Notes: generated by a model from the letters alone, not told the origin. A stretch of 64,000 nt of DNA from Fimbriimonadaceae bacterium (GCA_023957775.1 JAMLGR010000010.1:62001-126000), one strand, 5' to 3'; shown: positions 7,154-63,239, counted from the stretch's first letter. Made by a program: numbers and translations.

Positions 7154-7176
7154 CGCTTGGCAGGGTACCTCCCGCT

Positions 7177-8412: not shown

Positions 8413-8467
8413 CTCACCAAAGAAGACGGACCACGCCCTCCGTCCGGATGTGGAAAACCCCCAAACG

Positions 8468-43038: not shown

Positions 43039-43077
43039 TTGCCAGCGATCTTGGAAGCGCTTACGCTGCGGTCAGAG

Positions 43078-43521
43078 ATGACAAGTCCCAACCGCAGCGC
43101 GAGCGCTGCCACGATATCCCACAACCGAATCGCCGCCATCATGGTGCACATCACCCGCTACAGTTTCCGCGGAACCTCCAGGCTTGCCCATGACGCTGGC
43201 GTCGCCAAGTCCACGATCAGTCACCTAATCCGCGGGCTGGGCAATCCCATGTATATCACGGCTCGCCGCGTCGTCAAGTGCCTTGAGCATCACCTGGGCC
43301 GCAGGCTCCACCCCGATGAGGTGTTTTCACCCGATGGAACTTATCCCACCCTCTCTGTTTGCAGGCTCTGCGGCTGCCACGGCTGCCTGCCGGACTGCAT
43401 CTTTCGCGATGACGGCTCAAGACGAACCGAACACGACGACATCGTTCCGGGCCACTGGACCGGCGACGTCGAAGAGTTCCAAATCGCTTCGAAGACCGAT
43501 GAAGAGGTTGGCACGCAATGA
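43078..43521 (+). CDS. Helix-turn-helix protein with cysteine cluster
   Basis: A 147-residue (or 126, if the ATG at 43141 is used) DNA-binding-like protein. The helix-turn-helix is YSFRGTSRLAHDAGVAKSTISHLIRGLGNPMYITARRVVKCLEHHLGR, an XRE/Cro-type fold. A Cys-rich loop (CRLCGCHGCLPDC) follows and could bind zinc. The acidic C-terminus overlaps the next gene by 4 bp (ATGA). As the first of four closely packed genes it may regulate the set. Confidence 0.7.
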   Translation: MTSPNRSASAATISHNRIAAIMVHITRYSFRGTSRLAHDAGVAKSTISHLIRGLGNPMYITARRVVKCLEHHLGRRLHPDEVFSPDGTYPTLSVCRLCGCHGCLPDCIFRDDGSRRTEHDDIVPGHWTGDVEEFQIASKTDEEVGTQ

Positions 43522-44240: not shown

Positions 44241-44530
44241 ACGAGCTTCGCCCGATCTCGGAGATGCTACCCAGACCTCGCCGGCGCCGATCAACCAAAG
44301 GGCTCTCCCCAGACGATGCCTCTCTGAGCGAGCGAGACGAATTGGTGCTCGAACTGGTGCAGGTGGGAATTGGTGTCCGTAAGGCCGAGAGTCTTGTTTC
44401 CAGCTACCCGCACGACCAGATCCGCCAGCAGCTTCGTTGGCTGCCGTTTCGGGCCGCTCGAAGACGGGCTTCCCTACTCATTGCCTCGATCGAAAACAAC
44501 TATGACGAACCGCCTTATGCTGCGGACTAG
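44237..44530 (+). CDS. Replication-associated small protein (phage/ICE type)
   Basis: A 97-residue protein overlapping its neighbours on both sides. DELVLELVQVGIGVRKAESLVSSYPHDQIRQQLRWLPFRAARRRASLLIASIENNYDEPPYA resembles the C-terminal segment of phage and integrative-element replication proteins (L-v-x-x-G-I-x-x-x-x-A-x-x-L-v...I-x-x-q-l-x-w-l-p). On its own this would be a truncated or split replication factor. Function inferred. Confidence 0.55.
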   Translation: MNELRPISEMLPRPRRRRSTKGLSPDDASLSERDELVLELVQVGIGVRKAESLVSSYPHDQIRQQLRWLPFRAARRRASLLIASIENNYDEPPYAAD

Positions 44531-45014
44531 ACTCAAGCTCGGTGCAACCCGTGGCGGAACGACCCCCTTTCCCAATCTGCTTCTCGACAGGCTCATGCCA
44601 CGATTGACGGACACCCAGTGGCGGTTGCTCTGCGTCATTGTTCGGCAAACGTACGGTTGGAGCAATCCTGACGGAACGCGCAAGACTTCCGATTGGATGT
44701 CCCACTTCCAGCTCAAGCGAAGAACCGGACGTCAGAGTGCCGCGATCAGCAGAGCCATCGAGTCCCTGGTTCTCGGCCGATTGATCGTTGTTCGGGATTT
44801 GTACGGCAGGCCACTACTCTCAGCTTCGATCCGGCGACGTTCGCATCAGCACCTGTGCTTCAGCCTCCACCCGCGTCTGATGAGCACCTCCCTCATCGCA
44901 CCTGAGAATGCTCGACCGCGAAATTCCAAAAGCGAAAACAACAAAAGAAAAGTTTACAAAACAAAACAACAACAGCTTGATCTGCAACATGAGGAAAGAC
45001 ACTCGGGTCAATGA
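44502..45014 (+). CDS. Replication protein O-like (winged helix)
   Basis: A 170-residue basic protein. TPFPNLLLDRLMPRLTDTQWRLLCVIVRQTYGWSNPDGTRKTSDWMSHFQLKRRTGRQSAAISRAIESLVLGRLIVVRD follows the N-terminal Rep_O pattern (p-N-x-x-l-d-x-l...l-t-x-x-q...R-x-T-y-G-W-x...T-G-x-s...v-s-r-a-I-x-x-L). The C-terminal ~50 residues are very basic (KSENNKRKVYKTKQQQ). Such proteins recruit replicative helicase in phages and integrative elements, suggesting the island has its own replication function. Confidence 0.65.
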   Translation: MTNRLMLRTRLKLGATRGGTTPFPNLLLDRLMPRLTDTQWRLLCVIVRQTYGWSNPDGTRKTSDWMSHFQLKRRTGRQSAAISRAIESLVLGRLIVVRDLYGRPLLSASIRRRSHQHLCFSLHPRLMSTSLIAPENARPRNSKSENNKRKVYKTKQQQLDLQHEERHSGQ

Positions 45015-45261: not shown

Positions 45262-45432
45262 ATGTACTTGCCCGTTCCGAACGACAAGGAAGTTCAGCGT
45301 TTCAAGCTCTTGTACAAGGAGCGGTTTTCTGTCACGTTGACGGATGCAGAGGCGCTGGACACTGCCACGCGCCTACTTCAACTCTTCTATCTAACAAGTC
45401 ATGCGATATATTCTCTACGCAAGGAAAAGTAG
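45262..45432 (+). CDS. MYLP-PN small protein, upstream partner of serine recombinase
   Basis: A 56-residue protein whose end overlaps the recombinase start by 32 bp. MYLPVPNDKEVQRFKLLYKERFSVTLTDAEALDTATRLLQLFYLTSH belongs to a set of four related small proteins in this window (others at 47360, 48950 and 54256, minus strand), with shared M-x-L-P-x-x-N, acidic E-V, T-D-x-E-A and A-T-R-L-L motifs. Similar short frames sit before large serine recombinase genes elsewhere by my recollection. Function unknown; helper or regulator of recombination is inferred from context. Confidence 0.7.
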   Translation: MYLPVPNDKEVQRFKLLYKERFSVTLTDAEALDTATRLLQLFYLTSHAIYSLRKEK

Positions 45433-47047
45433 CGAGTCCGAGGACCGCCAGGTCCAGAGCATCGACGATCAGCTTCGAGTCCTTCGCGAGTTCGCGGTTC
45501 GGGCGAAACTGAATGTGGTCTGCGAGCTTATCGAAGCCAGGTCAGCCAAGGCTCCGGGGACACGCCCGGTCTTTGCCGATCTTCTGGGTCGAATCCAGCG
45601 TGGGGAGGCCGACGCCGTTCTATGTTGGAGCATCAACCGTTTGGCCAGAAACCCAGTTGATTCCGGACAACTAAGTTGGATGCTCCAGGAGGGAACCCTC
45701 AAGTCCATCCGGACCGTTGATCGTGAGTTCCTCCCCGAAGACAATGTTCTGCTGATGGCGGTCGAGTCCGGCGTCGCCAACCAATACATCCTGGATCTTC
45801 GCAAGGCCGTCATCCGGGGGATGGAGGGCAAGGCAGCCCGCGGCTGGTACCCCAACCGCCCGCCGCAGGGCTACCGGGTCAACCCGGAAACCAAGGAGAT
45901 CGAGCCCGTCGAGCCTCAATTCGGCTTGCTCAGGCGAGCCTGGGACCTGCTTCTCTCGGGCGCATTCAACGTCACCCAGATCCGGCAGAAGCTGATCGAC
46001 TGGGGCTACCCGTATCCGAAACGCGGCTCGCTCGGCAGCCGGCTCTTCTCCGAATCTCACCTCTACCGCATCTTCGACAACCGCTTCTATTGCGGGACGT
46101 TCACATTCCGAAACCAGACCTTCGAGGGCAGACATCAAGCGATGGTTGACCCAACCGAGTTCGAGAAGGCCCAGCTCATTTTGCACAAAGGCCTCACGAG
46201 ACAGCCGAGGAAGCACGAGTTCGCCTTCACAGGACTGATTCGTTGTGGAGGCTGTGGCTGTTTCATCACGGCCGAGTGCAAGACCAAGCACTACAAGACG
46301 ACCGATCGAACGGCTGCTTACGAATACTACCGATGCACCCGGCGCAGGGGCCCTTGCCACGAACCAAGCGTTACGGGAGCGTTTGTGGAAGCCAGTATCG
46401 CCGAGGAAGTCGACAAGCTCAGCATCGACGCTGACTTCGGTCGCTGGCTGCTCGATGCCCTTGAGCGAGATTGGTTTGAAACTCCCGAGCGAGAAGCAAA
46501 CCACGTCGCCAAACTCGAGGCCCAGATTCAAGCCGGAGAGCAGCGCGTCGCCCGTCTCGTCGAACTCCGAGTCGCGGGTGAGCTGGAGTCCAGCGAGTTC
46601 GCAGAGCTGAGAGCTTCGGCACAGGAAGAACTTCTACGCTTGCGCACTCGGCTAAGCGCAATGACCGATCGTGAGGAGACAGTCCGAAAGGCATTGGTCA
46701 ACGCAGTTCGGTTCAGTTTGGACTCCAAACGGCGTATTGCAGAGGATGATCCGCAGATCAAGCGTGCGGTCGCAACTACCTTTGGGATTCGCTACGTTCT
46801 CACTCTGGGACAGCTTCAAATCACGCCCCATCCGCTCTTAGCGCGCTTCTCTGAGTTAGAACCTCCAAAACCACCGCGTCAACGGGTTGGAGCGAGGGCT
46901 TTGCAGCCCGGCGCTCCCCTTCGGTGGGCCTTTCGGGACCAGATTCGAACTCTGATAGCAGGTTTGTCTGACGAGGATCTCAGTTTTCCGGATCAAACTC
47001 CATTTGCACCGAACGCTGACTTGCCCGAAGTTGGGAGGGCAGCATGA
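45401..47047 (+). CDS. Large serine recombinase
   Basis: A 548-residue site-specific recombinase. The resolvase domain (residues ~1-145) begins MRYILYARKSSESEDRQVQSIDDQLR with catalytic Ser in RKSSES and conserved Arg in SINRLARN. The Recombinase domain (~150-260) reads GWYPNRPPQGYRVNPETKEIEPVEPQF...YRIFDNRFYCGTF. A zinc ribbon (CGGCGC...YYRCTRRRGPC) and a long coiled coil (LEAQIQAGEQRVARLVELR...AQEELLRLRTRLSAM) follow. The last ~40 residues (WAFRDQIRTLIAGLSDEDLSF) are encoded by a repeat present twice more downstream. Overlaps the stand-alone Recombinase-domain gene by 4 bp. Confidence 0.9.
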   Translation: MRYILYARKSSESEDRQVQSIDDQLRVLREFAVRAKLNVVCELIEARSAKAPGTRPVFADLLGRIQRGEADAVLCWSINRLARNPVDSGQLSWMLQEGTLKSIRTVDREFLPEDNVLLMAVESGVANQYILDLRKAVIRGMEGKAARGWYPNRPPQGYRVNPETKEIEPVEPQFGLLRRAWDLLLSGAFNVTQIRQKLIDWGYPYPKRGSLGSRLFSESHLYRIFDNRFYCGTFTFRNQTFEGRHQAMVDPTEFEKAQLILHKGLTRQPRKHEFAFTGLIRCGGCGCFITAECKTKHYKTTDRTAAYEYYRCTRRRGPCHEPSVTGAFVEASIAEEVDKLSIDADFGRWLLDALERDWFETPEREANHVAKLEAQIQAGEQRVARLVELRVAGELESSEFAELRASAQEELLRLRTRLSAMTDREETVRKALVNAVRFSLDSKRRIAEDDPQIKRAVATTFGIRYVLTLGQLQITPHPLLARFSELEPPKPPRQRVGARALQPGAPLRWAFRDQIRTLIAGLSDEDLSFPDQTPFAPNADLPEVGRAA

Positions 47048-47313
47048 CCGAGCAGAGCCAAGCCATGACGGAATACTTCCAATTTCTCTCAGCGAAGGGC
47101 AAGCACGCTCGACAGGCAAAGAAGGAACAAGGCGAGGCCACGAGTAAGCCTCCCTTTGGATTCAGGAACGTCAGAGCCGATGGAAAGCTAAGACTCTCTC
47201 CGGATCCAGTTACCTTCCCTCAGGCGATGATGGCTCTCCAGATGAGACGGGATGGCTCCACCCTCCGAGAGATCTGCACGTTCATGGGCAAGAGGGGCAT
47301 GGTGTCCAGAAAC
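46924..47313 (+). repeat. Recombinase 3'-end repeat, copy 1 (reference copy)
   Basis: This block holds the final ~40 codons of the serine recombinase and most of the Recombinase-domain gene. Copies at 50241 and 54737 start at the same base, GTGGGCCTTTCGGGACC, while sequences to the left of each copy are unrelated. The edge contains ATTCGAACTCTG, which resembles a tRNA T-loop. Confidence 0.85.
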
Positions 47314-47430
47314 GGCAAAATGATCCGCGAGAACGGTATGCACAAGATCCTGAAGACGTTCAGTCGAATTGTCGATACAGTTCTTGGAGATCAGGACTCG
47401 TCAGAACCACAAGTTGTAACAGGCGAGTAG
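47044..47430 (+). CDS. Stand-alone Recombinase-domain protein (no catalytic domain)
   Basis: A 128-residue protein coupled to the recombinase by a 4-bp overlap. YFQFLSAKGKHARQAKKEQGEATSKPPFGFRNVRADGKLRLSPDPVTFPQAMMALQMRRDGSTLREICTFMGKRGMVSRNGKMIRENGMHKILKTF matches the linker helix plus Recombinase (PF07508) domain of large serine recombinases (G-x-x-P-x-G-y...l-x-x-d-p...G-x-t-l-x-e-I), with no resolvase domain in front. It should be a DNA binder that could compete for or modify attachment sites. Two other copies downstream are truncated or broken. Confidence 0.75.
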   Translation: MTEQSQAMTEYFQFLSAKGKHARQAKKEQGEATSKPPFGFRNVRADGKLRLSPDPVTFPQAMMALQMRRDGSTLREICTFMGKRGMVSRNGKMIRENGMHKILKTFSRIVDTVLGDQDSSEPQVVTGE

Positions 47431-47533
47431 CTCCGTCATGAGCTTCCGCGTCGGTCATTTCCAATCCCAGTAGCTCTTTGGCTAGCTTCTTGAGCCCTTC
47501 GACTTCCTTCCCATTAGGCGTTGGTAAGTACAT
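47360..47533 (-). CDS. MYLP-PN small protein, paralogue 2
   Basis: A 57-residue protein from the ATG at 47533 (MYLPTPNGKEVEGLKKLAKELLGLEMTDAEAHDGATRLLQLVVLTSPDLQELYRQFD). A longer frame adds 17 residues not shared with the other copies. Convergent with, and overlapping, the stand-alone Recombinase-domain gene by 71 bp at its 3' end. Confidence 0.65.
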   Translation of the reverse strand: MYLPTPNGKEVEGLKKLAKELLGLEMTDAEAHDGATRLLQLVVLTSPDLQELYRQFD

Positions 47534-48057
47534 ATCGATTACGATATCTGCTCCGACTCCTACTTTAAACTCAACCCATTTCATGCAGCAATGACACTAA
47601 TTGACGAGCCGACTTGAACCCGGTAAAATGGTTGCATCATCGGCGCGAACACTGCGCTTCGACAAATACTGAACTGCTAAACAGACGGCAGGTAGGTACC
47701 CCATAAGGGGAGTCGAGACCGTTAATAAGTCTGCCGATGGAGACAATAATGAATTCAAACATTATCTGTCGACCCTTCATTACATTACGTAATGGGGTAG
47801 TGCTATACGCACGAGACTGTGGGAAAACAGCTTTCTGTTTTCCAGCAGACCCATCGTATTGGAGAAGAAGGACACAAAAGGAAAAAGCGCCAACCCTCAA
47901 GGAAGACGCTTAGACCTTGACGGAAACGCCCGCAGCAATGCGGGTGTTTCTAATTCAAATCACAAAATGCAGGATAAAGAGTTCCGCCGGTTCCATCAAC
48001 CCTTCCCACTGCATATTCTTAGACTATAGCATTGCAGTTTTGCGTCAAGTGGACAGT
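47534..48057. other. Gene-free lower-GC gap
   Basis: No convincing gene. It contains a T-arm-like GGGTTCAAGTC on the minus strand (about 47600-47625) and a hairpin GAAACGCCCGCA/TGCGGGTGTTTC at 47923-47950. A minus-strand frame of 87 codons (47637-47900) lacks features of a real gene. Confidence 0.6.
47923..47950. terminator. Hairpin with 12-bp stem, terminator-like
   Basis: GAAACGCCCGCA-GCAA-TGCGGGTGTTTC, in the gap between the small protein and a membrane protein gene. The T-run is weak on both strands. Confidence 0.45.
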
Positions 48058-48636
48058 TTACACTATGGGTACATCAACTATTGTTACTTGACCAGTCGAT
48101 CTTGAAAGGGCTTCTATCCTCAGAATGTTTTGAGGTCTTACGCGAACAACAAATCGCTTTCTAACCGATTTACCCAATAGGTCAATTCGTAAAAGGCACT
48201 TGTAGTTACCCGCCTTCAACGAAATCGGACTCCAACTGTCTCTTGGCTCAAGTTCGAGATTGTAGCGAACAATTTGCCCTCGTCTAATGGTTCTATCCTC
48301 GCGTGAAGGGAACCGATAAACGGCATCGTGTGACTCTTGAAAGAACTGACGAAATACGAAGCGTCCTACACCTGAAATCAGGATTGTTGAGTTATTGAAT
48401 GTGGTATTCTCGCTGGTTTTAAGAATGACCTGTAAGTGGATCTTGTAAATCTTGCCATCACTAGAAACCACGAAGCCGAGGGCATTCATTGGAGATGCCA
48501 GAAATGAGACATTCCTAGTTGGGAAGAACTCTGCCTCTATCCAATCATAAAACCGAAGGTGTTTTACCTTAAGTAGAGTCAGGCAGTAGAGGAATACTAG
48601 CAGGACCACGAGTATGATAACGATCTCGATTAGCAT
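48058..48636 (-). CDS. Hypothetical single-pass membrane protein (cargo)
   Basis: A 192-residue protein with an N-terminal transmembrane helix (IEIVIILVVLLVFLYCLTLLKVKHL) and a beta-rich outer or cytoplasmic part (GFVVSSDGKIYKIHLQVILKTSENTTFNNSTILISG, YNLELEPRDSWSPISLKAGNYKCLLRIDLLGKSVRKRFVVRV) that looks like an Ig-like sandwich. No family is recognised. AT-richer than the backbone. It lies as cargo between two decayed recombinase-module remnants. Confidence 0.65.
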   Translation of the reverse strand: MLIEIVIILVVLLVFLYCLTLLKVKHLRFYDWIEAEFFPTRNVSFLASPMNALGFVVSSDGKIYKIHLQVILKTSENTTFNNSTILISGVGRFVFRQFFQESHDAVYRFPSREDRTIRRGQIVRYNLELEPRDSWSPISLKAGNYKCLLRIDLLGKSVRKRFVVRVRPQNILRIEALSRSTGQVTIVDVPIV

Positions 48637-48759
48637 GTCTCGATACTCGTATAAATCCTCCGAGATGTCTATACCGCAAAGGCACCCAGAGGAAATTTCA
48701 CTTTATAGAAAGCAACTCCAACAGGTTGAAGTATTTCCCCTTGAGTGGACCTGCCGGGA

Positions 48760-48984
48760 ATCTTGCAGGTGTTCAGTGCACGGCAAGTCCACCATCGCTC
48801 CGGATCCAGAAACCTTCCCCTAGTTGATGCTGGCTTCCAAATGCTACAGGACTGCTGCACATTGCGAGAGGTTTGTTCGCTCATGGCCAAAAAGAGCCTA
48901 CTATCGAAACGGGGCAAACCACTTCAGCCGAACAGGATGGACAAGGCTCTCAAGACGTTTGCTCATGTTGTTGGAAGAGCTTGA
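48760..48984 (+). pseudogene. Decayed Recombinase-domain gene remnant
   Basis: Two fragments in different frames match the stand-alone Recombinase-domain protein: GKSTIAPDPETFP (then a stop) and TLREVCSLMAKKSLLSKRGKPLQPNRMDKALKTFAHVV. A frameshift near 48815 separates them. More diverged than the other copies, so an older insertion remnant. Confidence 0.7.
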
Positions 48985-49122
48985 GAATCTCTGGACTCGT
49001 GAGAACAAAGACGTGAAGCAGACGGGTCGCGCTTCTTTGTCCGTCACCTCCATCCCAAAGCGTTCATTGACAAGCTTCTTCATCTCCTGAACCTCTTTGT
49101 CGTTTGATGTAGGCAAACGCAT
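48950..49122 (-). pseudogene. MYLP-PN small protein, paralogue 3 (frameshifted)
   Basis: MRLPTSNDKEVQEMKKLVNERFGMEVTDKEA matches the family, but the rest (ATRLLHVFVLTSPEILKLFQQHEQ) is found in another frame, so a one-base indel breaks the gene. It is convergent with and overlaps the decayed Recombinase-domain remnant, repeating the layout at 47044-47533. Confidence 0.75.
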
Positions 49123-49330
49123 GTAATATTAGTAACATGGCCTGCGATTAGCTGCCCAGATCCGTTGACTACCTCCTAGCTCTCTGCTACGATGCGCGTG
49201 TTCATTAACAAGTCTTTGAGACGAGCTTTTTGGGAGCAAGGATTGTTTCCAGGAAGCTCATCTCAATTTTAGGGATAGCTCGCATTCAGCGACACTGAAC
49301 TCTCTTGAATTCCTAGGAGGGGATCAAGCA

Positions 49331-50089
49331 ATGCTAAACTCAGATTTCAAACCCGTTCCGCTAGGTCGAGCCATCGAGCTCCTGGGAGCTAATAGGGTCG
49401 TGACCGCAGAGCAAGCCAGCAAGGCCTGGGGACGCAAGGTAGTTGAAGCCGACTCTGGCAATTTAAGGCTCAGCGAAGACGTCATTCGAGACGCCGCAGA
49501 ATCGAACAGGGCCGGAGACAGCGATTATCTATTGATCTACTGCTTGGGCCTTTCTTTGCGCGAGCAACGAGAGTCCCTGGGGTCCGACAGAGAACGTCAA
49601 CCGTGCTTTTTCGATCAAGGCGATTGGTGGATGGATCCGGAAGACGATGAGTGGGCAACCATTAAGCCGCAGCCAGGCTATCGACTTCTTGACTACAAGC
49701 TCAAATACCTCAACTTGAGCTGGCAAGCGCAGGAAAATGAGATCGCAAGGCTTGGGCAAGGATTCTCTCGGGCTCACGAAACCGATGTTGCTGGAGGATG
49801 TCTAAGCTACTATAAGGTTATGAGCGAGAATGTGTTGGAGAGGAGGCATCAAGATTCGGACTCGTTTCAACTTGAGCACTGCCTGAACATTGCGAGCGAG
49901 CTGAGAGAGGATTGGTATGTCCCACGTCTGTTGGAGGAGGGGCTTCATTGGGGATGTTCGCAATCCAGTTCGCAGGACCTCATTGTTCGTGTCGGGGTTG
50001 GACAGTTCCGGGAACCTGGCCTCGTAGTCGGTGGGGCTCACGAGAACACTTCCGGCCCCTACTGCGGAGTTGTCATTGAACGTACCTAA
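49331..50089 (+). CDS. Hypothetical protein (cargo)
   Basis: A 252-residue soluble protein with a preceding ribosome binding site (AGGAGGGG about 9 bp upstream of the ATG). MLNSDFKPVPLGRAIELLGANRVVTAEQASKAWGRKV could be a DNA- or peptide-binding helical start. The middle part (QPCFFDQGDWWMDPEDDEWATIKPQPGYRLLDYKLKYLNLSW) and the C-terminal QDLIVRVGVGQFREPGLVVGGAHENTSGPYCGVVIERT do not match a family I know. It lies between two recombinase-module copies and ends before a rho-independent terminator. Confidence 0.65.
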   Translation: MLNSDFKPVPLGRAIELLGANRVVTAEQASKAWGRKVVEADSGNLRLSEDVIRDAAESNRAGDSDYLLIYCLGLSLREQRESLGSDRERQPCFFDQGDWWMDPEDDEWATIKPQPGYRLLDYKLKYLNLSWQAQENEIARLGQGFSRAHETDVAGGCLSYYKVMSENVLERRHQDSDSFQLEHCLNIASELREDWYVPRLLEEGLHWGCSQSSSQDLIVRVGVGQFREPGLVVGGAHENTSGPYCGVVIERT

Positions 50090-50124
50090 CAGCCTTGTAC
50101 CTTCTCATCTGGTACAACAGCGTC

Positions 50125-50154
50125 AAGACCGGCGTTTCAGCGTCGGTCTTTTTT
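50125..50154 (+). terminator. Rho-independent terminator
   Basis: AAGACCG/CGGTCTT stem followed by six T residues, 36 bp after the stop of the 49331-50089 gene. Confidence 0.85.
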
Positions 50155-50183
50155 AGTCCTATTCTGGTCCGTGTACACCTAAC

Positions 50184-50235
50184 GAGAACGCTCTCCCTGT
50201 TAGAGGTTCTAACAACAGGTTTGGTGAGCGTTCTC
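50184..50235. repeat. Long hairpin just left of recombinase repeat copy 2
   Basis: GAGAACGCTC pairs with GAGCGTTCTC over 10 perfect base pairs, with an inner CTGTTAGA.../TAACA.CAG pairing. It ends five bases before the repeat edge at 50241. Confidence 0.7.
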
Positions 50236-50240
50236 TTTCA

Positions 50241-50626
50241 GTGGGCCTTTCGGGACCAGATTCGAACTCTGATAGCAGGTTTGACTGATGAAGAGCTCAG
50301 TTTTCCCGATCAAACTCCATTGCACCGAACGCTGACCTGCCCGAAGTTGGGAGGGCAGCATGACGGAGCAAAGCCAAGCCATGACGGAATACTTCCAATT
50401 CCTCTCAGCGAAGGGCAAGCACGCTCGACAAGCAAAGAAGGAACGAGGCGAGGCCACGTGTAAGCCTCCCTTTGGATTCCAGAACGTCAGAGGCGATGGA
50501 AAGCTAAGGCTCTCGCCTGATCCAGTTACCTTCCCTCAAGCGATGATGGCGCTCCACATGAGACGAGATGGCTCTACCCTCAAGGAGATTTGCAAGTTCA
50601 TGGCCAAGCGAGGCATGCTGTCCAGA
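50241..50626 (+). repeat. Recombinase 3'-end repeat, copy 2
   Basis: Near-identical to 46924-47313. It begins exactly at GTGGGCCTTTCGGGACC and ends where the Recombinase-domain gene is cut (CTGTCCAGA). Confidence 0.85.
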
Positions 50627-50653
50627 GGGAGCGGCATCGTAGCGATCGTCTGA
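50360..50653 (+). pseudogene. Truncated stand-alone Recombinase-domain gene
   Basis: MTEQSQAMTEYFQFLSAKGKHARQAKKERGEATCKPPFGFQNVRGDGKLRLSPDPVTFPQAMMALHMRRDGSTLKEICKFMAKRGMLSRG, then a new non-homologous tail and stop. It lacks the last ~30 residues of the intact protein at 47044. The remaining gap to 50810 holds nothing recognisable. Confidence 0.75.
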
Positions 50654-50810
50654 CATGTGAAGGCCAGGCACGTGTCCGATAAACCGTACTGGGGCAGGTT
50701 TTCGCCACAGTCGGCCATCAGCTGAACATCCCCAACCCATTCATCACTTAGACCGAGATCGGTGAACCGGGAACGTCGATAGGAGCTATCTTCGGACTCG
50801 AATTCAGGAG

Positions 50811-53800
50811 TTAGGGACTAGCCACAACATTGAGCGGAATCTGGTGTACCTCATACAGGAACGTCTCCGTACCTCCCATGAGCTCAAGTTGCGCGGACGA
50901 TGCTGACGACTTCGAGACACCGGGTTGAACCAACCACATCGTGAAATCGGGCCGCAAGAGGCGTGCCGCATTCCTCAGTTCAATGAGCTTGTTTTTGTCG
51001 CCTTTCATGAGGCGAGAGACACCCGATTGAGCTACAGATTTGTCCTCACGAGCGAGAAGGCGAACGATCATTTTTTCCATTTCATCCCTCCATTTGATCG
51101 CTTTCTGTGCCTGACCGCAAACTTCGTACAAGTCTTCAACACGGCTGCCGGGTTGAGCGCCGTGGGAATATTTGCAATGGACCAGGGCCACCTTCAACAG
51201 GTCGTCTTGCCGTTTGAGGCAAATGATGTCTGCAACTTCGTTCGGGCCGTCATCGTCAAACACGATCTCCCATGACGCGTCAGCAAGGAACTCCTGAACA
51301 GCGCGGTACTGGATCGAATCTGATTCCCGTGTTGCCCCTTGGGACTCCTTCCTTAGGTCCGTTCCAGTCCAATTCCACTCGATGATCTTCGTGCGATCAT
51401 ACGAAGAGCGACTTCCTTTCTTTGGCTGGACCAGCAAACCGCCCTCAAGAACCGCTTCGGCTTCGAAGTAGATGATCGGAGGGTAATTCTCGAACTCATC
51501 GATCAGCCTTGAAGTAGCCGTGCCGATCCTGATCGAGGCGACGTCCCCTTCCAATTGCTCGTACCTCACCTCCCTGTTCTCGAACTTGATTTTGAACACT
51601 GCACGTTTATTGTTTACTTGCACTGCAAACTTCAAAGAGTCAGTTATTGCGGTTGGCACAACTTCGATGGAGGCATCAAAGACGGCGCACTCGGAGTTGC
51701 CGATTCGAATGAAAGCCCTTCTTTCGAGTTCGATGAAGAACTGATCATGCCAATCGACCGACAGGGCCATTAGGCCCGGACGCTCAGAGAGCTCCTGTGG
51801 CACCACGAACCAATCGTTGATCTTCGCGATTGTGATCGTCTCATCCAAGAGCTTCTTGCCAACGTGCTTGCACCATGCAACCCAGTGAGAGATGTCGTCA
51901 GCAACAAGATATGACCAAAGTCGGCCACGAATAGAGCAGCCCATGGTCGCCCGTTCTCCATCCTCGTAGCCATGGGCAAAAAGATTTGTCTTCGTGCGAG
52001 TGCCAGCCTGTGCTACCGTGATTCCCTCAAGAACGTCGGAGCCAGCCAACATCGTAAATCGCACGTTTCGTCCTGTAACGTGCTTGAGCCCAAGATTGAA
52101 GAGCACAAGTCGGTTGATTCCGTACACTGCCCGATAGATGTCTTCGCCCTGTATCCGCTCAACGTCATCACCGCAGACTAGGGAGGCCAAGTCCTTTTGA
52201 AAGCCTCGGTTGTCGGTGCTGTTGATAAAGAGGAGCTGTCGCTCCTTGTCCCAATGTAGCAGGAAGAGCGCATAGTAGACGTCCAGGGCATCCTTTGCGA
52301 GCCCCCATTCGACATCGGATGCCTCCATGACCACATAGAACGCCGTCTGGTGCTCATCACTGATAGAGGGGCCCGCGAACACCTGGGCTTTTTCTAACCA
52401 CTTTTCGAGTGCCTTTGGGGTCCATTCGTCGCACTTCGTCCGGTAAACAACTGTGCTCATCTTCGGCTGGATGTTCTCGGGAGGAAAGTCGACACCATAT
52501 GGTTTGAATGTGGCGGAAAACTCAGTCCGCTTCACCTTCGAACCGATGGTCTGGTCTGCCATCTCCTGGATCAGGCGGTTCCAGTCGGCATCTTGGGCGT
52601 AGAGGTCTCTCAGTTCATCGCCGATGCCAGACAGGGCGGCATTGGCGATCATCGTTGCCGGCCCCAGCGTGGTGTCCAAGCTAGTCCTAGTAAAGCGCCC
52701 GGTGAATTGCAACGTGATTGCGAGGCTCTTGTGAAGATCGTGGAGCGCAGCAACCTTCAACTGAGCGTAGTCGAACCCCTCACCAAGCATATTGTCGCAA
52801 AGGATCACGCGAGACTTGCCCGTCTTCATTGAATCTAGGGCGAGCTTGCGGTCAGCCTGGGACATTTGAGAGTGAATGATTACTGGATTTAGGTCTGCTG
52901 CTTGACTCGTGTAGGTCGGCAGGATCTGCTTCAGTCGTTCAATCGGGTGGGCACGAGCCATAAGGACGTGGTCGTACCCATCCTTTAGGTCCTCCCGAAG
53001 TTGCTTCACGGCTGCATCCGCGATTGCTTGGTCCGAGAGTTCGGGACGGAATTGGAAGATCGGCTTGTATTGAATTGGCTTGAAGTAGCCCTGCTCTTGC
53101 GCCTTCCGAAGAGGAAATGAATAGATCACCTTGCCGTCAACTCGCTTTCCGTCGTTGCGGTAGGGAGTAGCAGTGAACTGAAGGACGTGCTTATGCAGAA
53201 ACTGTGCCTTTAGATGCGACCAGGTGCGTGCCGGAACATGATGAGCTTCATCAATGAACAAGTGGCTGCAAGATTCTGCGATCCGCGCGATGGCGTCTTC
53301 GCTACTTGCCACGACTGAGTTAATAACAGCCACGATCACGTTAGCAGGTCCAAACAACTCATCTACGGCAGCGGTCGTCTGAAGGCTTGATCTCATAAGG
53401 GCAACGACCGGGCACTGGGCACTCTGATTCAGGTTTGTTAGCTTTTTGAGGAGCCCCAGGCTCGCAAACTTTCCAAATAGCTGATCTCGCAAGACTACGC
53501 TCGGGACGATTACCATCACGCGATCGCAGCGCTCACTCACAAGTGTAGCAAGCATGGTTTCGGTCTTGCCTGTCCCAGTAGGCATAACAATCGTGGCTGG
53601 CTCGTCCGATACCGTCCAATGAGCATGAATAGCGTGAAGAGCTCCGATTTGAGGTGGCCGCAAGCCGGGTCGACCAAGAGTCTGGTCCTCACGGCAGAAT
53701 CTGAATGCTTCCTTCCACGAATCCAGCGCATCCTGGCGACACGAAGGTTGTGGTTTGAGAATCCTTACGTTTTCCCACTTGAGTTTTGTGCCCGACCGGC

Positions 53801-54050
53801 GAAGGAATGGTTCAGTGGAGGTCGAGCGTGCGCCGCTCTCATATACTCGAACCATCCGGCCGACGGGCAGATTAAGCTCTGTCCACGACTCTGTGCCGCT
53901 AGACACTGTCTGCGTTTCGGCAGCCCCCTCATAGCCCTCGAAACTAAGCTGGAACAGCTTGCTCTTCCCGACGTGTGCCTCAAGGTGAGTGGCCGCTGGG
54001 ATCTTGACGCTGGGTACCTTTTCTGTGAATAGCCCTTCCTGACGAGACAT
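50811..54050 (-). CDS. SF2 helicase-nuclease fusion, defence-type cargo
   Basis: A 1079-residue protein. The helicase core has RPPQIGALHAIHAHW (Q-like), VMPTGTGKTETMLATL (Walker A), LFIDEAHHVPA (DEAH), QFTATPYRND (motif III), and QFTGRFTRT (motif VI). The C-terminal ~180 residues contain SWEIVFDDDGPNEVADIICLKRQDDLLKVALVHCKYSHG, where D...(E)VADI and H-C-K fit a PD-(D/E)xK nuclease. Its architecture resembles helicase-nuclease components of phage-defence systems. It is cargo between recombinase-module copies 2 and 3. Confidence 0.8.
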   Translation of the reverse strand: MSRQEGLFTEKVPSVKIPAATHLEAHVGKSKLFQLSFEGYEGAAETQTVSSGTESWTELNLPVGRMVRVYESGARSTSTEPFLRRSGTKLKWENVRILKPQPSCRQDALDSWKEAFRFCREDQTLGRPGLRPPQIGALHAIHAHWTVSDEPATIVMPTGTGKTETMLATLVSERCDRVMVIVPSVVLRDQLFGKFASLGLLKKLTNLNQSAQCPVVALMRSSLQTTAAVDELFGPANVIVAVINSVVASSEDAIARIAESCSHLFIDEAHHVPARTWSHLKAQFLHKHVLQFTATPYRNDGKRVDGKVIYSFPLRKAQEQGYFKPIQYKPIFQFRPELSDQAIADAAVKQLREDLKDGYDHVLMARAHPIERLKQILPTYTSQAADLNPVIIHSQMSQADRKLALDSMKTGKSRVILCDNMLGEGFDYAQLKVAALHDLHKSLAITLQFTGRFTRTSLDTTLGPATMIANAALSGIGDELRDLYAQDADWNRLIQEMADQTIGSKVKRTEFSATFKPYGVDFPPENIQPKMSTVVYRTKCDEWTPKALEKWLEKAQVFAGPSISDEHQTAFYVVMEASDVEWGLAKDALDVYYALFLLHWDKERQLLFINSTDNRGFQKDLASLVCGDDVERIQGEDIYRAVYGINRLVLFNLGLKHVTGRNVRFTMLAGSDVLEGITVAQAGTRTKTNLFAHGYEDGERATMGCSIRGRLWSYLVADDISHWVAWCKHVGKKLLDETITIAKINDWFVVPQELSERPGLMALSVDWHDQFFIELERRAFIRIGNSECAVFDASIEVVPTAITDSLKFAVQVNNKRAVFKIKFENREVRYEQLEGDVASIRIGTATSRLIDEFENYPPIIYFEAEAVLEGGLLVQPKKGSRSSYDRTKIIEWNWTGTDLRKESQGATRESDSIQYRAVQEFLADASWEIVFDDDGPNEVADIICLKRQDDLLKVALVHCKYSHGAQPGSRVEDLYEVCGQAQKAIKWRDEMEKMIVRLLAREDKSVAQSGVSRLMKGDKNKLIELRNAARLLRPDFTMWLVQPGVSKSSASSAQLELMGGTETFLYEVHQIPLNVVASP

Positions 54051-54255
54051 CTCTTTCGGGTTACTTTAAGGTGTGATAGAAGTAGACCGTCATGGCGTCG
54101 GAGCGGACACATGACCGTATGAGGGAGGCAATCCCGCGAGTGACTCGAATCGTCTTGTTTGACATAGTTTTGTCTACCGACAGTATAGTCCTCTCGATGC
54201 CGTTAGTCGACCCCTGGTCGCAGGTCAAAGCCAAGATTCACTTGAACCGAGCTTG

Positions 54256-54549
54256 CTAATCGTACGATTCGTAGTGAATCGGGACGATTAGGCGTCTCGA
54301 GCGAGGGGAATGACGTCGGTACGCGTGGATTGTCGGGCTGCGGAACGGTATGCGGCTGAGGTCGTCGATCCGCTTGTCGTACGATCTTCTCGGTCGTCTG
54401 ATGACGCCTCCGGAGGTCAGGCAGGTGAGATGGACGACGCACCACGCCACATCTTTCGCCTCTTCGGTACTGACCCTTACGCCAGTTCGGTCTTCAAAGA
54501 TCTCAGCGAACTCCTTGATTTCGGCCTCGTTGGGAAAAGGAAGTCGCAT
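54256..54549 (-). CDS. MYLP-PN small protein, paralogue 4 (extended)
   Basis: A 97-residue protein: MRLPFPNEAEIKEFAEIFEDRTGVRVSTEEAKDVAWCVVHLTCLT is the family part, followed by ~50 basic residues not found in the others. The most divergent paralogue. It lies between the helicase gene and repeat copy 3. Confidence 0.6.
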   Translation of the reverse strand: MRLPFPNEAEIKEFAEIFEDRTGVRVSTEEAKDVAWCVVHLTCLTSGGVIRRPRRSYDKRIDDLSRIPFRSPTIHAYRRHSPRSRRLIVPIHYESYD

Positions 54550-54655
54550 TTGCTTACAGGTGTAGCACGTCTGAACCCGAATGGGAATCGAACTCCACTT
54601 AACAGGGGTAGAACCAAAATGTTGCGCGGAAGAAACTAAAAGTTAGAACTTCTTT

Positions 54656-54718
54656 ACAGGTAGGGCAATTCCGAACCCAACGCGAGTTCGGACCCCATTT
54701 GGACCTGTCACTTCGCTT
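54656..54718. repeat. Long imperfect hairpin just left of recombinase repeat copy 3
   Basis: ACAGGT...ACCTGT outer stem, GGG/CCC and CCGAAC/GTTCGG inner stems. It ends 19 bp left of the repeat edge at 54737. Confidence 0.6.
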
Positions 54719-54736
54719 TTAGCAGGTATGTATTGA

Positions 54737-55058
54737 GTGGGCCTTTCGGGACCAGATTCGAACTCTGATAGCAGGTTTGTCTGATAAAGAGCTCAGTTTT
54801 CCCGATCAAACTCCATTTGCAGCAAACGCTGAACTGCCCGAAGTTGGGAGGACAGCATGACCAAGCAGAGCCAAGCCATGACGGAATACTTCCAATTCCT
54901 CTCAGCGAAGGGCAAGCACGCTCGACAGGCAAAGAAGGAGCGGGGCGAGGCGACGATCAGATTCAGGAACGTCAGAGTCGATGGAAAGCTAAGACTCTCT
55001 CCCGATCCAGTTACCTTCCCTCAAGCCTTGATGGCGCTCCAGATGAGACGGGACGGTT
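54737..55058 (+). repeat. Recombinase 3'-end repeat, copy 3 (left part)
   Basis: Starts at GTGGGCCTTTCGGGACC. It continues after the IS3 insertion at 56284-56375, where AAGTTCATGGCCAAGAGAGG resumes the homology. Confidence 0.85.
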
Positions 55059-55129
55059 GTGGTCTTCCCCCCAAAAAGTAGGCCATTCTAAACTAGAGAC
55101 TCCGGTGCCCTGAAAGGGCAAGGAGTGTC

Positions 55130-55432
55130 ATGAAGAAATCGAAGTTCAGCGAGGAGCAGGTGGTGAGGATCCTGCAGGAGGCCGCATCGGGCAAGCCGGT
55201 GCGCGAGGTGTGCACGGCGCACGGGGTGAGTGAGGCCACGTTCTACGTGTGGCGCCGCAAGTACGGAGGCATGGAGACTCAAGACGTCAAACGCCTGCGC
55301 GATCTCGAAGCTGAGAACGCTGCGCTCAAACGGATCGTGGCGGACCAGGCGCTCGTGATCGACGCGACCGGGAAACTGCTTCGAAAAAATGGCGTAGCGC
55401 TTCCGACCGCCGCACGGGAGCGCGGATACTGA
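55130..55432 (+). CDS. IS407-type transposase orfA
   Basis: A 100-residue helix-turn-helix protein: KFSEEQVVRILQEAASGKPVREVCTAHGVSEATFYVWRRKYGGMETQDVKRLRDLEAENAALKRIVADQALV, typical of IS3/IS407 orfA. Ends at the orfB start with a one-base overlap. Confidence 0.9.
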   Translation: MKKSKFSEEQVVRILQEAASGKPVREVCTAHGVSEATFYVWRRKYGGMETQDVKRLRDLEAENAALKRIVADQALVIDATGKLLRKNGVALPTAARERGY

Positions 55433-56247
55433 TGGACCACGGCCTTTCGCAGCGGCAGGCCAGCTCGCTCATGGGGATCTCCAGACGGGCGCTCACCATG
55501 CAGCCGGCACCGGACAAGGACGTCGCACTTCGCGAGCGTCTGAGGGCCGTGTGGAGGCCCAACATGGGCTACCGCATGGCTCACTCGCTCATCCGCCTGG
55601 AGAACGAGCCCCTCAACGTCAAGCGCGTGCACCGCGTGTGGAAGGAGGAAAAGCTCGGACGGATGAAGCGCTACCGCAAAAAGCGCACCGGAGGCTCGGT
55701 GCCTCTGGCCGCGGAAGGCCCCAACCACGTTTGGTGCGTCGACTTCTGCTTCGACTGGGCCGAGAACCGCTCAAAGCTCAAGGTGCTCGCCATCCAGGAC
55801 GAGTTCACCAAGGAGATCCTGGCGCTCGAGGTCGCGACGAGCATTCGGTCGCTGCACCTGCAAGAGGTCCTGTCCCGGATCATGCGCGAGCGCGGGGCTC
55901 CGCAGTTCCTGCGCTCAGACAACGGACCCGAGTTCATCTCGCGTTCGCTCGCCGTGATGCTGGCCAAGGCCGGTACAGAGAGCCGCTTCATCAAGCCTGG
56001 ATCTCCATGGCAGAACGGCTTTGCGGAGAGCTTGGTTTCCAGGCTCCGAGATGAGATCCTCGGCGTCGAGGTGTTTCACAATCTGGCCGACGCGCAACTC
56101 AAGCTCGCGATCTACCGCCGCTACTACAACGAAGTGCGGCCCCATTCGTCGCTCGGCCGAGTCCCACCCGTCGTGGCTGCACGAAGACGGGAGCAACTCG
56201 CCCACTGTCCGCCTTCCAATGCGTCAATATCTGAGGGAAGTCTCTAG
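55432..56247 (+). CDS. IS407-type transposase orfB
   Basis: A 271-residue DDE integrase core: D in NHVWCVDFCFDWAENRSKLK, D in FLRSDNGPEFIS, and E in WQNGFAESLVSRLRDE. MGYRMAHSLIRLE and the C-terminal YNEVRPHSSLGRVPP complete the IS3 pattern. Intact, so the element may still be mobile. Confidence 0.9.
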   Translation: MDHGLSQRQASSLMGISRRALTMQPAPDKDVALRERLRAVWRPNMGYRMAHSLIRLENEPLNVKRVHRVWKEEKLGRMKRYRKKRTGGSVPLAAEGPNHVWCVDFCFDWAENRSKLKVLAIQDEFTKEILALEVATSIRSLHLQEVLSRIMRERGAPQFLRSDNGPEFISRSLAVMLAKAGTESRFIKPGSPWQNGFAESLVSRLRDEILGVEVFHNLADAQLKLAIYRRYYNEVRPHSSLGRVPPVVAARRREQLAHCPPSNASISEGSL

Positions 56248-56400
56248 TTATGAGTGGCCTACCCAAAGGGGGCATGTCAGTTGCCCTCAAGGAGATCGGT
56301 AAGTTCATGGCCAAGAGAGGCATGGTGTCAAGAAACGGCAAAGTGATCCGAGAGAACGGAATGCAATAAGATCTTGAACACGTTCAGGCTCTTCGTTGAT

Positions 56401-56636
56401 AGATCCCGTACGGCTCCGGGCACGCTAGAATGAGGCAACGGGGACACGAAATTGCTTTGCTCACTCTTACCAATCGAAACACTCCCAAATCAAATGCACC
56501 AACGTTCCCAATAGTAGCCTGCCGTGTTCTTGAGAAACGTTCAACATACAGGAACAAGGGAGCACGAGTGCTGGTGGATAAAGTAAAGATGGCCTCCTCT
56601 AGCAAGGATACTAATCGAGATACTCAAAAGAACGGA
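56401..56636. other. Short gene-free gap
   Basis: Lower-GC DNA between the broken Recombinase-domain gene and the PHP-ABC ATPase stop. I see no gene or structure in it. Confidence 0.5.
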
Positions 56637-59390
56637 TCAGAAACCGTACTTTGCTTTTCTCATCTTAAAGGCCTTCTCACCGCCTTCCATGATCCTAGTA
56701 ATGGCCTCACGAACTGGCTTCTTGTCGATTGCACCACTCGCATAGATTTCCCCAATGACACCTGCAGCGGTTGACGTTGACTCAAGGCATACAACAAGCT
56801 CTGCATCTCCATTTACTACAAGGTTCGCGTTGTGGCTCGCGAAGATCAACTGCCTCCCCTCCTTTGCCGACCATATCTTCTCGACGAGCGACGAAATGAA
56901 CTGACTATCGAGGTCATCTTCAGGCTGATCAATCAACAGTGGAGGCCCAACTTGGCCCAGCAATGCGGTGAGTAGAACGGATGCCTGCTGACCTGCGGAC
57001 GCCTTCCCAAAGGGGATTAAATCTCCAGTTTCAGTTCTAAACTGAAATACGACATCATCTTCCGGACAGGCTCCGATGATTGAAGCGTAGTCTTGGTACT
57101 TAAGCACCTCAGCAGCTCGGTCTATTTCTGTGTCTGAAAAGACCCCTCTGAGGCTTTGGAGGGTTAAGGATGTGATGTCGATGGCCTCATGCTTCGCCCC
57201 TATGACCTTGTCAAGGTCCTCAACGAAACCACGCCACAGTTGGATCCGATCGGTACTATCAGAAAAGCGTTGGGCCATCTCCTCAAACTTAGCCCCCCTG
57301 ATGTTTGATCCCTTCAGGACCTCCTGCAACTTCTCGATAAACGGCTGAATGTCCTCTGACACTCCAACATATACGCTGAATCGTTTATCGGTGGCTTGCT
57401 CCACACGCCGCGCTTCATCCTTGAGCAATTTCCCTCTCTGTCGTAAGAGACCTGCCCGTTGGTCTAGCAGTTTCGAAAACTCCGAACCAGCTTCTGCCAA
57501 AACCTTCACCCTTGCTTCGATAGCACTGAGACGCTGAAGAAGCTTCTTCTCCTCTACCTCAAGAAATCGTATTTGCTTGACTTGAGCCTCACTCTGTTTG
57601 CTCCGTTGTTCGAGCTGCACACCGCGTTTCTTGGCAGTTGCGATTTCGCCTCGAACGAGCGCTTCACTTGATGCGAACACGCCTTCGGCGTCGACAAGCT
57701 TCTTGAGGTGGACTCCTGCCATTTTTATAGCGTCAGAGGAGGACTTGATGGCGGATTGTGTGGCAGCCACGAGGTTCTCGATTGAGTCCTTGTGCGGGAG
57801 ATTGTCAAGCACCAATTCACCGTAGTCCGGCCAGGACCTCAGATTGCTATAGACTGTGCGAAGCGTAGAGACTATGCTTTCTAACTCAGATCGAAGCATA
57901 GCCAGCAATAACTCCTCTTCCTGGGTCTTGGAGGCTCTGGCCAACTCTGAGCGCTCTGAGTCGGAAAGGCCCTTGAGGCCCTTCCGCGCCTGCTCAAGTC
58001 GAGTGCGGATGGACGCAACTTGCTTTCGAGCTGAGGCTTGATCCGCTCTCGCCTGCCTAAGCTGCACCCATCGTGCGTGGGCGCTCGTAGCTGTAACCAA
58101 ATTCGCCTCTCGGGCTTCCCTCAGACGCTCCTGTTCGTTCTTGATATTTGAGTACAGAAAGGCTCGCACTTGGTCGGATTCGAGGGCAACGGTGCTTAGT
58201 TCCTTTTGGCCATATACAGCTATCGGTAGTAGCTCGCGGATCTCATCTTGTGTCGCAGCAAGAAACTCCCCATCTCCGATGCGAAGGTGAATAGCGCCCG
58301 AGGTGCTGTCACGCCGGACAGTGTGGAGCGTTCCATCAATCGTTACATCGACTGCGACCATGCCCTTGACGGGCTTAAGCGTGTCCTCAACGATATCTCG
58401 CTGCTGCGGGCCCGTTGGGCGGCGTGCTGAAGTCGCGGGCCGACACAAACACCAGCGAACATACTCAATGATTGTCGTCTTACCTGATCCTCTTCCCCCA
58501 ATTAGAGCGTTGAGCTGTGGGCTGAATTCCTGGTTTAGGTTTCCCAAGAAGGTGCTTGCAGTCAATGCCACCGAACTGATCCAGGTTCCTGTCATACGAG
58601 GATCGGTGGTAGAAATCCTGGATTCACATGCCAAACACGCCTGTCTCAGAGCTTCTGCCGTGGGCTCAGACCATTTGATCCAGCTGGGATGCTCACTCAG
58701 AGACTCTACGGTGTTTTCGCGGGAGTCATTGGTTTGGATGATAGCGATCTTCTTGTTACCGTAGGCCCTGTCTTTACCATTCAGTTTCTTTAGGTGACCA
58801 TCTCTCAGTTTTGAGGCGGAACCGTCAACGTATCCTCCAACGCACGGCATCTCTGTGTACTTGTTCGCGAAGCCAGCGCGTATCAGGGTGGACTGGCCGC
58901 CATCGCTGACGTTAGGCAAGACAATATAGCGTCCTTTGACACCAGGCACGCCGTCAAGTCGGGCAGAGAGGTCTGACAGTTTCTCAATGGGAAGACGCTT
59001 GACTGCAGGGCCCTTTGCAGGAATCTGGGCAGGCAGGGCCAGCCCAAGTGCGGTGTAGGCCTGGTCAAGAAGGGAGTCGGGTAACTCACTGTCAAAGAGG
59101 AGCAAGGCTTGACAGGGCACATCGAGGGTCAATTCCATTCCTGGCCAAACGACCAGAGCCTCATCAGCAAACTCCGAGGCGACGATGTGCCTGAGAAGCT
59201 TCACGAACTCCAGGTCATGATGGTCCGTAATAGCGACGGCATCAAGCCCGGCGGTCAAGCAATTTCTGACAAATTCTCGGACGAACTCCGTCCAATCACC
59301 CGTCGTTTTGAGAGTGGGTGTTCGATACCGCTCGTCTCGCGGGCTGTGCACCTGTAATGCACTCTTGTGGAATCTAGCACCAAGAGACAT
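56637..59390 (-). CDS. PHP-domain ABC/SMC-like ATPase (TrlF type), defence cargo
   Basis: A 917-residue protein. The N-terminal PHP phosphoesterase has ALQVHSPRDERY and AVAITDHHDLEFVKLL metal-site residues and WPGMELT. The ATPase has Walker A (GGRGSGKTTIIEYVR), a long coiled coil (~residues 400-700), an ABC-type signature (GKASAGQQASVLL), Walker B (PLLIDQPEDDLD) and a His switch (FASHNANLVV). PHP plus SbcC/RecN-like ATPase is the TrlF-type layout found in bacterial defence regions. Likely senses or processes nucleic acid; the target is unknown. It lies right after copy 3 of the recombinase repeat. Confidence 0.8.
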   Translation of the reverse strand: MSLGARFHKSALQVHSPRDERYRTPTLKTTGDWTEFVREFVRNCLTAGLDAVAITDHHDLEFVKLLRHIVASEFADEALVVWPGMELTLDVPCQALLLFDSELPDSLLDQAYTALGLALPAQIPAKGPAVKRLPIEKLSDLSARLDGVPGVKGRYIVLPNVSDGGQSTLIRAGFANKYTEMPCVGGYVDGSASKLRDGHLKKLNGKDRAYGNKKIAIIQTNDSRENTVESLSEHPSWIKWSEPTAEALRQACLACESRISTTDPRMTGTWISSVALTASTFLGNLNQEFSPQLNALIGGRGSGKTTIIEYVRWCLCRPATSARRPTGPQQRDIVEDTLKPVKGMVAVDVTIDGTLHTVRRDSTSGAIHLRIGDGEFLAATQDEIRELLPIAVYGQKELSTVALESDQVRAFLYSNIKNEQERLREAREANLVTATSAHARWVQLRQARADQASARKQVASIRTRLEQARKGLKGLSDSERSELARASKTQEEELLLAMLRSELESIVSTLRTVYSNLRSWPDYGELVLDNLPHKDSIENLVAATQSAIKSSSDAIKMAGVHLKKLVDAEGVFASSEALVRGEIATAKKRGVQLEQRSKQSEAQVKQIRFLEVEEKKLLQRLSAIEARVKVLAEAGSEFSKLLDQRAGLLRQRGKLLKDEARRVEQATDKRFSVYVGVSEDIQPFIEKLQEVLKGSNIRGAKFEEMAQRFSDSTDRIQLWRGFVEDLDKVIGAKHEAIDITSLTLQSLRGVFSDTEIDRAAEVLKYQDYASIIGACPEDDVVFQFRTETGDLIPFGKASAGQQASVLLTALLGQVGPPLLIDQPEDDLDSQFISSLVEKIWSAKEGRQLIFASHNANLVVNGDAELVVCLESTSTAAGVIGEIYASGAIDKKPVREAITRIMEGGEKAFKMRKAKYGF

Positions 59391-60959: not shown

Positions 60960-60970
60960 CGCCTCACGCC

Positions 60971-61921: not shown

Positions 61922-61952
61922 TTCAGACTTCTCCCATCATATCGGCCAGCAT

Positions 61953-63238: not shown

Positions 63239-63239
63239 C

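Follow-up and report, generated by a model that had tools for sequence, protein, structure and literature searches.

A window of 64,000 nucleotides (JAMLGR010000010.1:62001-126000, on contig C10 of the 3.5 Mb genome of a Fimbriimonadaceae bacterium, GCA_023957775.1) carries the gene for a large serine recombinase, int, followed by cargo genes that are separated by repeats of the last codons of int itself. We consider it likely that this arrangement is a cassette array built by the recombinase docking at the 3′ end of its own gene, and the edge common to the repeats is best read, from sequence comparison, as the core of an attachment (att) site within that 3′ end. The repeats, their sharp common edges, their orientation and their conservation across lineages are directly seen, as are the cargo and, in a relative, the joining of the same recombinase arm to a transfer-messenger RNA (tmRNA) gene.

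Three repeats with a common edge

The core starts at codon 508 of the 548 codons of int, and the final ~40 codons of the gene lie to the right of the edge. The window contains three occurrences of the edge string GTGGGCCTTTCGGGACC, always on the plus strand (46924, 50241 and 54737; chance mean 0.35, allowing three mismatches), and the rest of the genome none. The unit that begins at the first of these positions (46924-47430) is repeated at 50241-50626 with 91.5% identity and at 54737-55056 with 88.9%. The transition at the edge is abrupt, as the two repeats match the first copy at 33% and 20% over the 60 bases to its left, which is the level of chance, versus 100% and 100% over the 40 bases to its right. 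Among the copies, the sequence to the right of the edge is 92-100% identical. A preliminary description of this DNA had already claimed three copies with one left edge, each preceded by a different sequence, and both statements hold; when the copies were aligned across the edge, none displayed homology to its left.

It had also been stated that the recombinase tail and the following small gene are present in all three copies. The repeats are real, but not all of them are whole: in the second copy the recombinase tail has a one-base frameshift and the small gene is truncated, while in the third an IS3-family element interrupts the small gene, and therefore only the first copy is fully intact. 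Regarding the small gene, its description as a Recombinase-domain gene found no counterpart in Pfam, where no family scored; on the other hand, profile comparison with hhalign places it as a putative solo Recombinase (DNA-binding) domain (Table 1). An older, decayed remnant had been reported as well, and indeed the stretch at 48795-49006 matches the small gene. The core ahead of it (~48738-48760, CTTGAGTGGACCTGCCGGGA) aligns well with the other cores, yet is at chance level when taken alone.

The same arrangement in relatives

The family sample comprised 85 genomes of the phylum Armatimonadota, one per species, 26 of which encode recombinase homologues at E<=1e-60; the DNA around these homologues was retrieved for locus comparison. 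In 33 loci of the family it was asked whether the recombinase 3′ end recurs within its own locus, with 518 windows taken from the recombinase body and upstream as controls. Repeats of the 3′ end were detected in 8 of the 33 loci, amounting to 12 copies, all of them downstream and on the same strand, versus a single match for the controls, on the reverse strand. The eight arrays (the window, L083, L084, L134, L136, L141, L144 and L147) belong to six genera including that of the window, and L145 represents a ninth, weaker case.

Across the arrays the edge falls on homologous codons, TTTGGTGG or a near variant, and the sequence to its left is unrelated; averaged over 14 pairs, two weak ones included, identity is 28% to the left of the edge and 83% to its right. 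The cores of each array resemble their own recombinase gene, not the cores of other arrays. TTTGGTGG is translated V-W-W (Val-Trp-Trp) in one recombinase clade and F-G-G (Phe-Gly-Gly) in another, and it is therefore the DNA that is conserved. Detached tails are still in frame in the third copy of the window, in L136 and in two copies of L147, and the tail of L084 is identical. In addition, homologues of the small gene lie between cores in L083, L136, L144 and L147, and in L084 one directly follows the core. The phylum has a second family with such arrays, of which one genome (G114) holds three (L200, L202 and L203); their five copies are all downstream on the strand of the recombinase, and their edge is located at the same Trp codon. 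When the 85 genomes were scanned with a generic att pattern (TTTGGTGG...), 12 matches were obtained, 10 of which are known cores, versus none for the reversed control, and no clear array lacking a recombinase emerged; bare counts of TTTGGTGG downstream of the recombinase are too noisy as the sole criterion.

Many cassettes present a strong hairpin 10-20 bases ahead of the next core, outside the repeated core itself and whatever the strand of the cargo. As several of these hairpins lie upstream of minus-strand cargo, they are not simply the terminators of the adjacent genes, and the proposal that they serve solely as such was rejected. Pre-core hairpins were also noticed in L147 (about 9465-9505 of the oriented locus) and L145 (about 7890-7920, oriented).

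Taken together with the tmRNA junction described below, the eight arrays and the three of the second family make it probable, as proposed earlier, that insertion took place at one fixed site within the terminal part of the recombinase gene. It could be argued that the repeats arose without any site-specific reaction, through segmental duplication of the recombinase 3′ part together with the small gene, with cargo between the copies and later decay, given that duplications are common and that partial degradation is visible in copies 2 and 3. We regard this as very unlikely, since duplications that arose independently in several genera and in a second family would not all end at one base; moreover, the left flanks are unrelated and no older copy with homology to the left of the edge was found. 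The alternative raised in the preliminary description, namely that cargo replaced lost recombinase genes via ordinary recombination and left their tails behind, would be consistent with the preserved frame of the tails, which is expected of the remnants of genuine genes. It deserves hardly any credence, because deletion ends should then vary and the edge is fixed. Furthermore, most other cassette ends show a hairpin, not a recombinase fragment, and no such fragment stands to the left of any downstream core in the inspected sequences.

The recombinase and its upstream platform

By its domain content (three Pfam domains in 548 amino acids, within the ~500-600 typical of the class), the product of int is a large serine recombinase, with predicted catalysis on att sites. 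A YARKS-type serine motif and RLAR were seen in it by eye, and its best match among solved structures is 9dxh (E 1.5e-13). Four genes precede int, encoding a helix-turn-helix (HTH) protein, an Mrr-like protein, a small conserved protein (X) and a replication-initiator-like protein (Rep). An HTH homologue is present in 32 of the 34 recombinase loci and an Mrr homologue likewise, both being absent only from L121 and L128, the latter a 4.7-kb contig; homologues of X and Rep accompany 31 of the 34. The HTH gene is found in 25 of 26 recombinase-bearing genomes versus 7 of 59 others (Fisher p 4e-14). This conservation in 31-32 of 34 loci, together with the enrichment of HTH, indicates that the module belongs with the recombinase, and the HTH-Mrr platform always stands on the recombinase side of the arrays.

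L137 and L138, which have near-identical recombinases, have loci that differ inside a coding region, not at a core. A second, different serine recombinase is encoded in L138 (10664-12226), a few kb downstream of the first. An ArdC-like conserved gene was noticed in 15 recombinase loci (L126, L142, L146 and others), in 14 of them downstream at a distance of 0.1 to 27 kb, and often near a DprA-like gene. Some of these loci have flanks ~80% identical and very different recombinases, which suggests that the recombinase gene itself was replaced.

Possible origin of the site

A scan of named genomes yielded 66 recombinase relatives, mostly from Patescibacteria. No relative was found on plasmids at E<=1e-30, phages encoded distant ones only, and viral contigs provided a single weak one. 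The C-termini of the relatives read as translated antisense transfer RNA (tRNA; ..RRGWDSNPRP), and ARAGORN located tRNA genes of many kinds overlapping the 3′ ends of their recombinase genes on the opposite strand, as well as a tmRNA in L047. Among L017-L082, from Patescibacteria and others, the isotypes comprise His, Trp, Gln, Asn, Ser, Pro, Arg and more (e.g., L018 9564-9637 and L021 9567-9654), and the DSNPRP-like C-termini annotated in these loci are translated tRNA.

The closest relative, L017, encodes a recombinase 67% identical to that of the window and ends in an antisense tmRNA (Rfam RF00023, 9522-9908). The left arms of both loci are 69% identical over 300 bases, with the hairpin in common, up to GTGG; past the first ~15 bases their right sides are unrelated, a cassette tail in the window versus the tmRNA in L017. 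As judged from this alignment, a single recombinase arm is linked, at one point, to a different partner in each locus. L017, the sister of the window on the tree with a support of 100, also retains pieces of the platform (HTH 68% identical). This occurrence (7000-9908), with its window-type recombinase and HTH and Rep fragments at a tmRNA, lies on a contig of a Berkelbacteria metagenome-assembled genome and reflects either horizontal transfer across phyla or misbinning.

No tRNA or tmRNA was found in the array itself, so that such a gene at the window array was rejected as a candidate; the host tmRNA is on contig C2 and the array on C10, and 30 of 32 loci have neither gene. From the tRNA and tmRNA ends of the relatives, we infer that the site may descend from, or mimic, the tRNA/tmRNA 3′ end targeted by related recombinases. 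This origin, the conserved HTH-Mrr platform and the Dehalococcoides precedent lay outside the preliminary description.

That precedent is relevant to a further alternative, the tandem accretion of ordinary islands, in which each unit would once have been mobile and complete, with a serine recombinase of its own at the right end, and would have integrated next to its predecessor at a tRNA/tmRNA-like site, most recombinases being lost later; the reaction would be att x att, with no dedicated capture platform. In Dehalococcoides, where tandem islands are found at ssrA, attL is invariably overlapped by the 3′ end of the gene for the serine recombinase DsiB, and the integration module is missing from 15 of the 31 islands (McMurdie et al. 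2011, PMC3146451). The insertion of the relatives at tRNA and tmRNA 3′ ends would agree with such a process. Nevertheless, we consider it unlikely for the arrays described here, owing to the 30 of 32 loci without tRNA or tmRNA, the window array among those with none nearby and its host tmRNA on another contig. In addition, no outer att site exists to the left of the platform and recombinase, either in the 45 kb upstream within the window or elsewhere in the genome (G000), and no second homologue of the recombinase was found between the cores of the confirmed arrays. The constant position of the HTH-Mrr platform on the recombinase side also argues against it.

Proposed mechanism

In the reading that we favor, docking of the recombinase at its own gene, the att core (GTGG.. 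in the window, TTTGGTGG.. in relatives) would sit in the final codons of the recombinase. A circular cassette would provide the right half-site, consisting of the core, an in-frame recombinase C-terminal tail, often the small gene for a solo DNA-binding domain, and the cargo, and it would recombine at the core. The tail of the newcomer would then pass to the recombinase gene, and the old tail, shifted downstream, would head the older cassette, repeated capture leading to the order recombinase-core-cassette-core-cassette. Cassettes without a recombinase would rely on the one at the left end, behind the HTH-Mrr-X-Rep platform. The parts of the scheme that we infer are recombination by this enzyme, the circular intermediates, the succession in which cassettes were inserted and what the small protein does. 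The term "serine integron" could be applied to a sedentary HTH-Mrr-X-Rep-recombinase platform that captures recombinase-less, mostly defence cassettes inside its own gene, swapping the C-terminal tail each time; for this more specific proposal the chances appear evenly balanced.

Several observations weigh against the docking mechanism. A downstream repeat is not detectable in 25 of the 33 recombinase loci, which may be empty, decayed or cut by contig ends, and the copy in L141, only 82 bases away, may be a local duplication of the tail. The arrays are scattered on the tree, a pattern that fits frequent gain and loss and also chance retention. In the window, no recognizable core was found to the right of the last cargo gene, leaving the right end of the array undefined. 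L130 and L135 have almost no gap between the recombinase and the next conserved gene, and their flanks are conserved, but they are not proven pre-insertion states because their recombinase alleles differ from those of filled loci. This sample of one genome per species showed no excised circle, no pair of strains with the site empty in one and filled in the other, and no activity, and the synonymous and non-synonymous counts on the tails are based on few sites.

Cargo

Profile matches in the window, G082, G023 and L123 support the view that the cargo is largely anti-phage defence, as had been proposed from the window alone. The cargo gene described as a helicase-nuclease is a predicted helicase, its nuclease part not being confirmed, and the one described as a PHP-ABC ATPase can be assigned to the TrlF/Ppl type (cut-off 350 bits). 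The cargo of G082 includes a CBASS pair, in which an SMODS cyclase accompanies a SAVED-HNH effector, as well as a cassette with pentapeptide and caspase-helicase genes and a set of ubiquitin-like, E2 and ThiF genes. G023 carries a caspase-helicase together with a STAND-like ATPase, and a TIR protein is encoded between the recombinase and a core-like site in L123. The caspase-helicase is present in 3 of the 85 genomes, each time within an array; G023 and G082 have it intact, and G031 retains a remnant.

The caspase is fused to a HamB-like DEAD helicase in L083 (8520-11528) and L173 (11482-14610), which makes a candidate defence gene. In L173 (15438-18923), ubiquitin-like, E2-like, ThiF and APH/TCAD9-domain genes share one cassette, of which PADLOC matched only the ThiF-domain gene. 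To the right of the window array, WD40-like and RHS/YD-repeat genes (59976-63848) are not obviously part of it.

Table 1. Features of the platform, recombinase gene and cassette array in the window (aa, amino acids)
Feature	Coordinates	Strand	Evidence or remark
Platform gene 1, HTH (repressor-like) protein	43039..43521	+	HTH_3, weak
Platform gene 2, Mrr-like restriction-endonuclease-fold protein	43518..44240	+	Pfam Mrr_cat 2.5e-12
Platform gene 3, conserved small protein X	44237..44530	+	tblastn homologues
Platform gene 4, Rep-like	44370..45014	+	tblastn homologues; family by eye only
int, large serine recombinase (predicted), 548 aa	45401..47047	+	Resolvase, Recombinase, Zn_ribbon_recom (Pfam above cut-off)
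Hairpin GGAGCGAGGGCTTTGCAGCCCGGCGCTCC, left arm of putative att site of int	46889..46917	+	Also in L017
att core 1 (putative), int codons 508 onward (GTGGGCCTTTCGGGACCAGATTCGAAC...)	46924..46971	+	Exact match with copy 3 over 48 bases, with copy 2 over 43 bases
Small gene, intact copy 1	47044..47430	+	hhalign to recombinase DNA-binding domain, 96.7% probability, E 3.4e-10
Cassette cargo: predicted membrane protein of unknown family	48058..48636	-	No Pfam or PADLOC match
Decayed head of a cassette: suggestive core (~48742) and small-gene remnant	48738..49006	+	Remnant 48795-49006, 67.9%, E 6e-12
Cassette cargo: 252-aa protein of unknown family	49331..50089	+	No Pfam or PADLOC match
Hairpin at cassette end, just before core 2	50184..50235	+	Strand folding z -3.8
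att core 2 (putative)	50241..50283	+	43-base exact match with copy 1
Small gene copy 2, truncated, 97 aa	50360..50653	+	Open reading frame
DEAD/ResIII helicase (predicted), 1079 aa	50811..54050	-	Pfam ResIII, Helicase_C; weak PADLOC PbeA 1.4e-11
att core 3 (putative)	54737..54784	+	48-base exact match with copy 1
Small gene copy 3, IS3-split	54857..56387	+	IS3-family element ~55067-56283 (HTH_Tnp_1, rve); 3′ half resumes 56284-56387
TrlF/Ppl-type PHP-ATPase (predicted)	56637..59390	-	NCBIfam NF045780 482.6 bits; PADLOC Ppl 4.7e-47

Relation to known systems

The system is akin to the Dehalococcoides ssrA islands, but anchored on the recombinase gene. In both, the 3′ end of the recombinase overlaps the att site and tandem units lie between repeats of the site. 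About half of the Dehalococcoides units are devoid of a recombinase, and the cassettes described here carry none. The recombinase gene takes the place that ssrA has as the anchor in Dehalococcoides, in an array without tRNA or tmRNA, the ssrA anchor being encountered in the relative L017. Unlike those islands, the units here open with an in-frame recombinase tail, often followed by the solo DNA-binding-domain gene, and the cargo consists of defence genes instead of dehalogenases. The genes observed beside the recombinase here are HTH, Mrr, X, Rep and the solo DNA-binding domain, and they appear to differ from the dsiA-recF-parB-mom module of Dehalococcoides, for which no profile search was made. 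It was suggested for DsiB that it might need a 3′ fragment from the neighboring island (McMurdie et al. 2011, PMC3146451).

In the staphylococcal cassette chromosome (SCC) and its enterococcal counterpart (ECC), the ccr genes move as part of the cassette itself, and rlmH holds the site (PMC6222049). As in SCC/ECC (CcrAB/CcrC), serine recombinases would here move cassettes into a fixed site at the 3′ end of a gene. The window recombinase is not an SCC Ccr protein, as it scores only 35.8 of 900 bits for CcrB, 33.3 of 900 for CcrC and 25.5 of 700 for CcrA.

The arrays also resemble integrons, especially sedentary chromosomal ones, in having a fixed recombinase by its own receiving site, recombinase-less cassettes, and att sites in one orientation. 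The accumulation of recombinase-less cassettes beside the recombinase is observed in the eight arrays and the three of the second family, and the conserved platform suggests that the recombinase is fixed. Unlike integrons, whose IntI is a tyrosine recombinase, these loci encode serine recombinase domains only, the site lies within the recombinase coding sequence, and the cassettes are multi-gene units that measure about 1.5-5 kb and use both strands for coding. Integron attC sites are recombined as folded single strands; no evidence for such sites was obtained here, where the hairpins stand outside the repeated core. Large serine integrases of the SPbeta type (YokA and relatives), the group of the best structural match 9dxh, belong to the same protein superfamily. 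They integrate a single prophage, and we know of no array associated with them. No description of recombinase-anchored cassette arrays was found in the open literature, a scope that left preprints and subscription papers outside.

Implications

The suggestion of McMurdie et al. (2011), that the end of a recombinase may be supplied by the neighboring unit, becomes testable in these arrays, which also provide recombinases with naturally matched att sites. Because the cores are shared, cassette ends are directly readable, and from position alone new defence systems can thus be discovered in the arrays. The serine integron, if true, would mean that the integron principle was invented independently, on the basis of an unrelated class of enzyme, and if the cassettes move without the platform, that principle would have arisen twice. 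For the bacteria that carry these arrays, repeated capture at one site would be a defined mechanism for the growth of some defence islands.
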